From positions 3,574,001 through 3,638,000 of the forward strand of contig NZ_CP047135.1 in NCBI RefSeq assembly GCF_009832905.1: 64,000 nucleotides of DNA, in the 5' to 3' direction. Positions 2,834 to 57,910 of the stretch are shown here, piece by piece. The stretch comes from Stenotrophomonas sp. 364 (GTDB lineage Bacteria; Pseudomonadota; Gammaproteobacteria; Xanthomonadales; Xanthomonadaceae). Under the pieces are notes generated by a model. The model saw only the letters and a program-made list of their open reading frames with translations, made no database searches and was not told the origin of the DNA. Position numbers and translations under genes: made by a program. Every line of letters starts with the position of its first letter. Within the stretch, counting starts at the first letter, position 1.

Positions 2834-3892
2834 ATGTCCCTCGCCCATGGTTATGCGGTGCACGACCAGACCGCCCCGCTGGTGCCGTTCTCCTTCGAAC
2901 GTCGCCCGGTCGCCGCTGGCGACGTCCGCATCCAGATTCTGTACAGCGGCATCTGCCACTCCGACCTGCACCAGGCCCGCGACGACTGGGGCAACTCGAA
3001 GTTCCCGATGGTGCCGGGCCACGAGATCATCGGCCGGGTGACCGAAGTCGGCGCCGGTGTCACCGCCTTCAAGGTCGGCGACTTCGCCGGCGTCGGCTGC
3101 ATGGTCGACTCGTGCCGCCATTGCGCGGCCTGTGACGAGTCGCTGGAGCAGTACTGCGAGAAGGGCGCCACCTTCACCTACAACAGCACCGAACGCGACA
3201 CCGGCCAGCCCACCTTCGGCGGTTACTCGGACCACATCGTGGTCGAGCAGCGCTTCGTGGTGAAGGTGTCCGAGAAGCTCGACCTGAAGGCCGCCGCGCC
3301 GCTGCTGTGTGCCGGCATCACCACCTACTCGCCGCTGCGCCACTGGAAGGTGGGCCCCGGCCAGAAGGTAGGCATCATCGGCCTGGGTGGCCTGGGCCAC
3401 ATGGGCGTGAAGTTCGCCAAGGCGATGGGCGCCACGGTGGTGATGATCACCACCACTCCCGAAAAGGGCGCCGATGCTAAGCGCCTGGGCGCCGATGAAG
3501 TGCTGGTCTCGCGCGATCCTGCGCAGATGCAGGCCCACGCCGGCAGCTTCGACTTCCTGCTCAACACCATCCCGGTGAGCCACGACACCAACCCGTACAT
3601 GGGCCTGCTCAAGCGCGACGCCACCATGTGCCTGGTCGGCGTGCTGACCGAACTGGACCCGCCGCTGATGGGCGCTGCGATGATGTTCGGCCGCAAGCAC
3701 ATCACCGGTTCGGCGATCGGTGGCATGGCCGAAACCCAGGAAATGATGGACTTCTGTGCCGAACACAACATCGTCAGCGACGTGGAAGTGATCGACATCA
3801 AGACCGTCAACGAAGCCTGGGAGCGCATGGCGAAGAACGACGTGCGCTACCGCTTCGTGATCGACATGGCCACGCTGGAAAAGGCGGCCTGA
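2834..3892 (+). CDS. Zinc-dependent NAD(P) alcohol dehydrogenase (YahK/CAD type)
   Basis: A 352-residue medium-chain dehydrogenase/reductase that reversibly oxidises alcohols to aldehydes with NAD(P). Catalytic zinc ligands are visible as Cys41 (GICHSD) and His63-Glu64 (PGHE), with a third Cys in LLCAGIT. Structural zinc is held by Cys94, Cys97, Cys100 and Cys108. The Rossmann motif is GLGGLGHMG. The CHSD motif and overall length fit the cinnamyl-alcohol-dehydrogenase/YahK branch of broad-range aldehyde reductases. It is transcribed divergently from a LysR gene and ends in a strong terminator 18 bp after the stop. Confidence 0.95.
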   Translation: MSLAHGYAVHDQTAPLVPFSFERRPVAAGDVRIQILYSGICHSDLHQARDDWGNSKFPMVPGHEIIGRVTEVGAGVTAFKVGDFAGVGCMVDSCRHCAACDESLEQYCEKGATFTYNSTERDTGQPTFGGYSDHIVVEQRFVVKVSEKLDLKAAAPLLCAGITTYSPLRHWKVGPGQKVGIIGLGGLGHMGVKFAKAMGATVVMITTTPEKGADAKRLGADEVLVSRDPAQMQAHAGSFDFLLNTIPVSHDTNPYMGLLKRDATMCLVGVLTELDPPLMGAAMMFGRKHITGSAIGGMAETQEMMDFCAEHNIVSDVEVIDIKTVNEAWERMAKNDVRYRFVIDMATLEKAA

Positions 3893-3909: not shown

Positions 3910-3940
3910 AAAAAACCCCGGCAATGCCGGGGTTTTTTTT
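3910..3940. terminator. Rho-independent terminator after the alcohol dehydrogenase
   Basis: Perfect hairpin CCCCGGC-aat-GCCGGGG flanked by a run of A on the left and eight T on the right, so it could work in both directions. It ends the dehydrogenase transcript. Confidence 0.93.
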
Positions 3941-4000
3941 CAGCTGTACGCGTGTGGTCGGGCAGTCCAGGCACCGCATGGAACCTGTTGTGTATTCGCC

Positions 4001-4290
4001 CGGGTCTGTCGCGAGCGTGAGGGCCGCGTAGCAGCCGGTAGACCCCTGGCGCAAATGTCCCCCGGCCGCGGGCGGCCTCCTCCTTTATTTTGCCCAGGAG
4101 CCTACCGGCTGCTACGGGGCTCGGCTTGCGGTAAGGAGGGGAAGCCAGTTTTTTCTGGCGCTGTCGGTGGGTCGGGCGCTGGGCGCCCATGCCCTTGGAG
4201 GCAAAATAAAGGAGGAGGAGGTGGCCGCAGGCCGACGCCGGGGGACATTTGCCGGAAAGGGCGTGGGCGCCCAGCGCCCGACCCACCGAC
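4001..4290 (+). repeat. 290-bp structured dispersed repeat, copy A
   Basis: A 290-bp element repeated at 57536-57825 in the same orientation and with the same length, roughly 93% identical by eye. It has two hairpins. P1 pairs 4028-4041 with 4102-4115 (14 bp). P2 pairs 4163-4196 with 4257-4290 (34 bp, one wobble). The loop of P1 contains two blocks (4052-4066 and 4076-4094) that are exact reverse complements of two blocks in the P2 loop (4237-4251 and 4200-4218). It lies between the converging dehydrogenase and gshA genes and has no credible coding frame. Its family name is unknown to me. Confidence 0.8.
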
Positions 4291-8521: not shown

Positions 8522-8591
8522 GTAGTGGCGGCCGCTGGCCGGCTCCTCTTTCGGCCGGATCTATCGGGAGCCGGCCAGCGGCCGGCACTAC
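8522..8591. repeat. Inverted pair of SMAG hairpins
   Basis: A forward SMAG (8522-8546, GTAG then ggcggccgctggccggc) faces a reverse one (8567-8591, ending CTAC). Each folds alone and the two also pair with each other. It lies between the converging MBL-fold and engB genes. Confidence 0.85.
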
Positions 8592-31676: not shown

Positions 31677-31792
31677 GTATGCCGGCCGCTGGCCGGCTCC
31701 TCGCAATGCCCGAAGATTCCCGCGAGCCGGCCAGCGGCCGGCACTACGTCATTGTGCGGGTTCATGGCGAGCCGGCCAGCGGCCGGCACTAC
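31677..31792. repeat. Three SMAG hairpins (one forward, two reverse)
   Basis: Forward 31677-31700 (terminus mutated GTAG to GTAT), reverse 31724-31747 and reverse 31769-31792. All share the stem gccggccgc-tggccggc, and the two reverse copies have a 45-bp period. They fill the gap between slt and cca. Confidence 0.9.
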
Positions 31793-57535: not shown

Positions 57536-57825
57536 CGGGTCGGTCGCGAGCGTGAGGGCCCCGTAGCAGGCGGTAGGCCCCTGGTGCAAATGTCCCCCGG
57601 CCGCGGGGCGGCCTCCTCCTTTATTTTGCCCAGGAGCCTACCGCCTGCTACGGGGCTCGGTTTGCGGTAAGGGGACAAGCCAGGCTTTTCTGGCGCTGTC
57701 GGTGGGTCGGGCGCTGGGGCCCCATGCCCTTGGAGGCGAAATAAAGGAGGAGGGGGCGGCCGCAGGCCGACGCCGGGGGACATTCGCCGGAAAGGGCATG
57801 GGCCCCCAGCGCCCGACCCGCCGAC
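57536..57825 (+). repeat. 290-bp structured dispersed repeat, copy B
   Basis: Second copy of the element at 4001-4290, same length and orientation. P1 here is 19 bp (57558-57576 with 57638-57656) and P2 is 34 bp (57698-57731 with 57792-57825). The complementary loop blocks are 57587-57601 and 57612-57630, matching the P2 loop. One base pair in P1 differs from copy A by a change on both arms. It lies between the kinase promoter and the BON gene; the other 250 bases before it (57286-57535) show no gene. Confidence 0.8.
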
Positions 57826-57882
57826 GGCTGCGCCTGAAAGCGTCAAAGCACGTTTCAGTCTGCCCGCAGAGGGGAGTAAAAC

Positions 57883-57910
57883 AAAAAAAGGCGCGCCCTA
57901 AGGCGCGCCC
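57883..57910 (-). terminator. Rho-independent terminator of the BON gene
   Basis: On the minus strand GGGCGCGCC-tta-GGGCGCGCC followed by seven T, 25 bp after the BON stop. Confidence 0.9.

Follow-up and report, generated by a model that had tools for sequence, protein, structure and literature searches.

In REPs one strand of each hairpin is the functional one, and REPINs or BIMEs are inverted REP doublets which are mobilised by RAYTs. In the attC sites of integrons a single strand folds, and the sequence of the stem varies while its structure is kept. For Stenotrophomonas maltophilia, the accessible part of Di Nocera 2013 (PMC3733652) describes TIRYT TIR families, i.e. self-complementary repeats that are often dimers, and names the bacterial MITEs ERIC, NEMIS and RUP.

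Here we analysed a 290-base intergenic block of Stenotrophomonas sp. 364 within its window (the whole stretch of 64,000 nucleotides) and found that it represents a worn copy of a DNA repeat element. Its best reading, to which we assign a probability of roughly 0.58, is a non-autonomous interspersed DNA element of the REPIN/MITE type, with a G-rich single-stranded DNA hairpin as the likely working form. Among the possibilities raised in a preliminary description of the block, a non-autonomous mobile repeat agrees best with the inverted ends, the filled and empty sites and the tandem copies described below.

Like REPINs, BIMEs and SMAG in Stenotrophomonas, the element is interspersed and intergenic, forms inverted hairpin pairs and occurs in mosaic or tandem copies. 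In contrast to REPINs and BIMEs, however, its units are several times longer, it carries a conserved tip instead of a GTAG foot, no RAYT lies beside any copy tested, and both Burkholderiales and Xanthomonadaceae carry it. With the TIRYT TIRs, as far as the accessible part of their description goes, it shares self-complementarity, frequent dimers and the genus, but the inverted repeats of the Y1 genes here begin with GGGGTCAGATCCCTTTCGC or AAAAAGGGGACGGAGGGGATTAA or are of GTAG type, a difference judged by the Y1 loci examined and not by the published TIR letters. MITEs are likewise short and intergenic, with inverted ends, no visible gene and a presence/absence pattern, whereas for the element no parent transposon was found, its two hairpins covary independently and its tip is conserved over two bacterial orders. 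The likeness to attC sites lies in the folding strand and the variable stems, whereas the conserved part of the element is at the tip, and no cassette array was noticed in passing. Because defining features of REPs, of the TIRYT repeat and of known RNAs were tested and not found, the element is set apart from all three.

The preliminary description knew no named family, and we can corroborate this: neither Rfam nor a literature search, confined mostly to papers outside subscription, yielded a description of the element, and the accessible parts of PMC3733652, PMC6006769, PMC3686654, PMC2267715, PMC4692102 and PMC6479982 do not describe it either. As far as these searches go, the family would be new.

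The window copy and its family

The block is situated between two convergent genes ending at 3892 and 4307. Judging from the protein sequences, we take the upstream gene (2834-3892, + strand) to be alcohol-dehydrogenase-like and its neighbour on the opposite strand to be presumably glutamate-cysteine-ligase-like. Inverted-repeat analysis recovered both reported hairpins: P1 is a perfect 14-bp stem (4028-4041/4102-4115) nested in a longer one (4023-4056/4087-4120, 82%), and the stem of P2 (4163-4205/4248-4290) is 91% complementary. The loop blocks of 15 nt (4052-4066/4237-4251) and 19 nt (4076-4094/4200-4218) are indeed exact inverted matches. Allowing up to three mismatches, the 19-mer occurs four times in the window, twice in a second copy at 57.5 kb, and not once in 100 shuffles; the hairpins and the matched blocks are not due to chance. 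As to the reported extent of 4001-4290, the hairpins stand and the limits do not, the element being longer: its diverged left flank reaches the terminator at 3910-3938, and the end search recognised no right end at this first site. The features of both copies are collected in Table 1. From the strand analysis of the family (see below), the folded and selected strand would be the - strand for unit A (4011..4131) and the + strand for unit B (4163..4290). Two further, weak matches of the covariance model R1 in the window (8531-8583 and 31688-31781, 23.5 and 20.4 bits) are probably unrelated palindromes.

Table 1 Features of the two element copies in the window (strand "." where a hairpin spans both strands).
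Feature	Position	Strand	Basis
Intrinsic terminator of the alcohol-dehydrogenase-like gene (presumed); insertion context	3910..3938	+	Inverted repeat I6 and T run
Diverged left flank, without a recognised GGTTCTTCTCCC end	3941..4010	+	Aligns to left flanks of other copies
Unit A hairpin (P1); C-rich tip on +	4011..4131	.	Inverted repeat; R1 match 4031-4113 +, 72.2 bits
Conserved tip of unit A, CAAATGTCCCCCGGC-hairpin-CCTCCTCCTTTATTTTGCC	4052..4094	+	Tip alignments
Inter-hairpin spacer	4132..4162	+	Twin alignment
Unit B hairpin (P2); C-rich tip on -	4163..4290	.	Inverted repeat; R1 match 4181-4271 -, 92.9 bits
Conserved tip of unit B; here CAAAT/ATTTTG, usual B form CGAAT/ATTTCG	4200..4251	-	
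Second copy, left end GGTTCTTCCGGC, preceded by GATGAAAA	57462..57473	+	
Second copy, unit A hairpin	57546..57667	.	R1 match 57566-57649 +, 77.4 bits
Second copy, unit B hairpin	57698..57825	.	R1 match 57716-57806 -, 93.9 bits
Second copy, degenerate right end GGGAGTAAAACA, merging into the A run of the terminator that follows	57872..57890	+	

As had been proposed, the two hairpin cores are inverted copies of one another within differing outer stems. P1 and P2 carry the tip, with the consensus ATGTCC(C/T)CCGG-[small hairpin]-CCTCC(T/C)CCTT(T/G)A, on opposite strands, A units having CAAAT/ATTTTG and B units usually CGAAT/ATTTCG. The right half of the tip (up to two mismatches) gave 35 matches in the 4.84-Mb genome of the strain, compared to five for a reversed control pattern. 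By our own grouping these form about 21 loci, and two more matches look like chance. The loci comprise twins, single A units, single B units and same-direction A+B copies (L111, L112). Distinct pairs less than 250 bp apart (n = 66) were oriented +- in 64 cases, ++ in two and -+ in none, so that the inverted doublet typical of GTAG REPs and REPINs is found here as well (64 of 66 close pairs). Tandem twins with a period of 304-332 bp occur in relatives (L107-L109).

In an alignment of 17 sequences of the genome (16 A units and the B unit of the window) conservation extends past the hairpins, reaching to GGTTCTTCTCCC on the left side and to GGGCGAAGAACC on the right. The terminal inverted repeats of the GGTTCTTCTCCC type are imperfect and about 12 bp long. 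Both ends were recognised in 18 of 32 twin loci of this genome and its near relative G067, at a spacing of 405-491 bp, and 13 of these 18 showed at most three mismatches over both ends (405-469 bp). A or T runs with the same letter flank both ends in seven of the 18 loci, a run is present on one side in nine and on neither side in two, and opposite letters were never seen; the equal runs may reflect target choice. Fuller copies are often found at the A/T run of an intrinsic terminator, either inside it or next to it. One locus of the genome (L181) has kept the two ends and lost the hairpins, and the end sequences vary by lineage (GGTTCTTC versus TTGTTCAGGGCG). At L198 (about position 4775281 of the same genome) a terminator precedes a GGTTCTTC end, behind which lies a long palindrome of another kind (beginning with GGGATGGGTGGGACCACGGGAC), as if ends and hairpins were exchangeable. 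The Variovorax loci L309, L318, L362, L374 and L381 surround the same tip with inverted ends of their own (TTGTTCAGGGCG and variants), which differ from those of Stenotrophomonas.

The genome search suggested earlier, performed as a DNA search with the window block, returned matches in 25 of 61 genomes, all of them in the genus of the window. The covariance model R1 matches all 25 supplied loci found by pattern or BLAST. Applied to 200 genomes of the order, it detected units in 15, which represent 4 of the 69 genera and a single family. Among 369 genomes of the class four carried units, and in the family of genome G357 the count was 83 of 200 genomes, or 65 of 141 genera. From the genera named in the pattern scan, the latter family should be the Burkholderiaceae in the GTDB sense. 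In the window's family four genera carry the tip, mostly as an inverted pair. The pattern scan of named genomes gave at least 120 stretches. The matches listed were mostly from Variovorax, Rhodoferax, Hydrogenophaga, Ramlibacter, Rubrivivax and kin, and also included Luteimonas, Lysobacter, Thermomonas, Pseudoxanthomonas and Stenotrophomonas. Three records named Bacillus subtilis SK7B5 (L328, L346, L366) bear Stenotrophomonas-type units; this assembly looks mislabelled or contaminated. The flanking reading frames with a Pfam match (13 of 20) encode ordinary proteins, e.g. RecJ, a LytTR regulator, DctM, HerA and TyrS. A phage origin was dismissed (two viral contigs, and no phage match for a Variovorax copy), as was a plasmid origin: no plasmid matched the window copy, and a Variovorax copy matched three Variovorax replicons without annotation.

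Stem pairing and the folding strand

As the preliminary description had proposed, a covariance model (R1) was built and covariation was analysed, based on a structure alignment of 21 non-redundant units out of 142 unit sequences. RNAalifold predicted 25 pairs for these units, 20 of which show changes on both sides. Pairing was retained in 89.9% of 525 cells, compared to 67.0% after shuffling and 35-51% when the structure was slid, and the covariation score was 0.567 versus 0.174 for shuffled alignments. Copies that vary without preserving the pairings, which would have spoken against the element, are not what we observe; the stems are variable, yet paired (20 of 25 pairs covary). In a comparison of orthologous copies from two species (28 unit pairs, 1383 stem pairs) we counted 48 double changes against 7.8 expected for independent changes, and 33 of them still pair. 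Without the L007 site, whose two A units make the partner ambiguous, 31 double changes remain, 21 of them paired. Single changes broke the pair in 91 cases and kept it in 21, and because of the 91 broken pairs the constraint on the stems must be called loose.

The tip is far less variable. On the G-rich strand it consists of the runs GG-R-GG-A-GG and GG-R-GG, in which each G is kept in at least 177 of 179 units and only the two R positions vary freely, a conservation that is partly built in, as the units were gathered by their likeness to the tip. The R positions were A/G, G/A or A/A and never G/G, with one C among the 179 units; in the C-rich reading this corresponds to C..T in 141, T..C in 32, T..T in 5, C..G in 1 and C..C in 0 units. 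We rejected this linked change as meaningful coupling, the left-T forms being confined to B units, where plain linkage may account for it. Judged from the letters of the tip, its G runs would be compatible with a two-layer quadruplex next to a duplex, or with contact to a protein.

A C-to-T change in a stem leads to a G.T wobble on one strand and to an A.C mismatch on the other, and a folded strand under selection tolerates G.T better than A.C. On the strand that bears the C-rich tip, A.C outnumbered G.T among isolated stem mismatches by 172 to 38 in 144 units of the genus, by 47 to 9 in 42 units from other genera of the family, and by 215 to 34 in 181 units from the listed loci of the named-genome scan. 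By unit type the A.C:G.T ratio was 93:25 for A and 65:6 for B, and among the matches listed in the named-genome scan it was 80:6 and 80:13 for the two twin members and 55:15 for other units. Since the bias is present in A, in B and in both twin members, the direction of replication or transcription alone is not its cause. Counted unit by unit with ties excluded (41, 58 and 2), A.C exceeded G.T in 84 units versus 9 for the reverse, in 112 versus 11 and in 15 versus 0. As a positive control, the RNA sense strand of 60 intrinsic terminators gave 14 G.T and 3 A.C, while 127 other inverted repeats from 60 listed scan loci gave 30 of each, other mismatch types being equally common; a control with GTAG-REPs comprised two usable stems only. 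From these mismatches, the G-rich strand (TAAAGGRGGAGG-[mostly c(GNA)g hairpin]-CCGGRGGACAT) is the one whose folding has been preserved, although hairpin-linked deamination on this strand could also produce the bias. The cruciform considered in the preliminary description is disfavoured by the same bias as far as a symmetric role in DNA is concerned.

Whether the folded strand acts as RNA or as DNA bears on the best-surviving alternative, namely a structured RNA in which the G-rich strand serves as a 3'-UTR hairpin, a protein sponge or a small RNA in read-through transcripts. Covariation and strand-specific G.U tolerance are as expected for a structured RNA, and to this extent the small RNA suggested earlier is conceivable. 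Whereas RNA prefers GNRA loops, the prevailing loop here is the c(GNA)g triloop: of 350 units read on the G-rich strand, 262 have a triloop at the tip, 177 of them GNA and 6 TNC, and only 5 of 51 tetraloops are GNRA. Within the genus itself GNA accounts for 46 of 95 triloops. Furthermore, single units in codirectional gaps lack an orientation bias (15 ++ and 14 -- of 54 singles, by crude gene calls), many copies lie behind a terminator, and Rfam gave no match at gathering score in 12 loci and none near gathering over 4001-4290 or over the Variovorax copy L362 (7400-7900). A structured RNA therefore appears rather unlikely to us. Single-stranded DNA is the more likely working form, based on the absent orientation bias and on the GNA loops, for which part of our argument is general knowledge. 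GNA loops give rise to extraordinarily stable DNA minihairpins according to the title of Yoshizawa 1997, as quoted in PMC6479982.

For the mobile DNA element we propose that the G-rich strand would fold upon becoming single-stranded in replication, in repair or in an R-loop, and that a putative protein would read the folded tip. With one functional hairpin per DNA strand, a twin could work whichever strand is exposed. Such a tip-reading protein may have mobilised the element, the copies may have a role for the host, or both. More tentatively, and with less than even odds in our opinion, the unnamed family of Burkholderiales and Xanthomonadaceae might represent a new single-stranded DNA mobile-element system or a host system of single-stranded DNA signals, in which the G-rich hairpin, a c(GNA)g-capped stem over the purine internal loop GGRGGAGG/GGRGG, possibly forms a quadruplex-duplex hybrid that is read by an enzyme. 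If our reading of the element is right, a structured repeat absent from Rfam is present in dozens of sequenced genera, and its conserved tip must have a reader; the oligonucleotide, the strand and the motif provide a handle for finding the tip-reading protein. In addition, the mismatch-polarity test could reveal the functional strand of any palindromic repeat, which is an open question for REP-like elements.

Site occupancy, mobilisation and gene context

The proposed comparison with empty sites in related strains revealed sites whose occupancy differs by species, the element being present in some and absent from others. At the first site of the window the core was present in 4 of 30 loci, the own genome included. 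In the relatives G069 and G019, for instance, which lack the element, a gap of about 70 nt retains the same terminator (3910-3938), and several other genomes have GTAG-type repeats instead. In G017, G036, G068, G070, G076, G079 and G083 (L138, L130, L132, L120, L133, L139 and L134) about 1.4 kb of coding-looking sequence replaces the element, and in G064 (L126) another reading frame lies between the convergent genes. At the second site 3 of 30 loci contain the core, that of G071 being a single A unit in the opposite direction.

Compared with the near relative G067, 19 of 20 own loci were occupied at the orthologous place (17 with both flanks matched, two with one flank). Of 14 G067 loci without a partner in our genome, eight had both flanks in the stretches retrieved from it, and the core was absent in seven and present in one of them; three were also compared as alignments. 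From the 19 of 20 shared sites and the 7 of 8 empty ones we concluded that the insertions are mostly old but not universal; a recent jump was not caught between these two genomes. Filled and empty sites have diverged to a degree that makes joints and target duplications unreadable.

A mobilising gene was found neither at the Y1 loci nor in the wide unit pairs examined. Y1 (RAYT-type) genes, a part of which were examined, are present in 58 of 61 genomes of the genus, and none of 54 Y1 loci (53 distinct genes, with flanks of up to about 1.5-2.5 kb) contained a convincing unit. These comprised two own loci, 30 of the genus, 14 from unit-rich genomes (one being the L089 gene) and eight from other genera of the family. 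The best unit score there, 23.2 bits, fell on a GTAG repeat, and a tblastn search of 137 loci with 39 Y1 reading frames gave one match, about 5 kb from a unit. Two wide-spaced pairs (L229, L287) were read as candidates for an autonomous copy and turned out to hold host genes. The Y1 genes of the genus (L061-L106) are flanked by palindromes beginning with GGGGTCAGATCCCTTTCGC, by AAAAAGGGGACGGAGGGGATTAAGTCGT-like repeats or by GTAG REPs.

That the element belongs to the GTAG-REP/RAYT or TIRYT systems of Stenotrophomonas is suggested by its inverted pairs, intergenic position and mosaic copies, which resemble REPINs and BIMEs, and by P1, which happens to begin with GTAG. This assignment is nevertheless improbable. 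The GT(A/G)G foot is absent from B units and from the A units of other species, the 54 Y1 loci yielded no convincing unit, the Y1 flanks seen are GTAG REPs or other TIRs, and two genomes that bear units, G165 with 11 and G200 with one, gave no Y1_Tnp match. It is unlikely that the element was mobilised by a RAYT/Y1 transposase whose gene lies next to a copy.

By crude gene calls, convergent gaps are the commonest class among 89 twins (32, versus 7 divergent). In the listed loci of the named-genome scan neither the divergent deficit (6/55 twins versus 71/322 gaps, p = 0.07) nor the convergent excess (19/55 versus 86/322, p = 0.26) was significant, and the same applied to the own and G067 loci (divergent 1/34 versus 5/68, p = 0.66; convergent 13/34 versus 23/68, p = 0.67). 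The apparent preference for 3' ends was consequently rejected as not significant against background gaps, which leaves the bidirectional transcription boundary of the preliminary description without statistical support. A bidirectional terminator between convergent genes, although in keeping with the position of the window copy, the prevalence of convergent gaps and the strong hairpins, is very improbable, as the excess is not significant, no T run follows the stems as read from the sequences, many copies lie beside a separate terminator and the conserved tip would be left unexplained.

Equally remote is a kissing-loop or switch structure in which the loops of P1 and P2 pair together. The 15- and 19-nt perfect inverted matches of the window copy had suggested it, and among the listed matches of the named-genome scan 15 of 62 twins have the same core in both hairpins and another 23 show a single difference. 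However, single units occur, and the identical cores reported for the window copy are not the rule: 63 of 66 distinct twins of the genus differ at two to six core positions and three are identical. As tips that must pair would stay identical, we rejected this structure. In 62 of the 66 twins both bases of one pair differ, with A:T in unit A and G:C in unit B, and this switching pair is kept inside 129 of 132 hairpins; pairing is preserved within the hairpins, whereas matching between them is not. The perfect loop match of the window copy arises from a B unit bearing the A-type pair.
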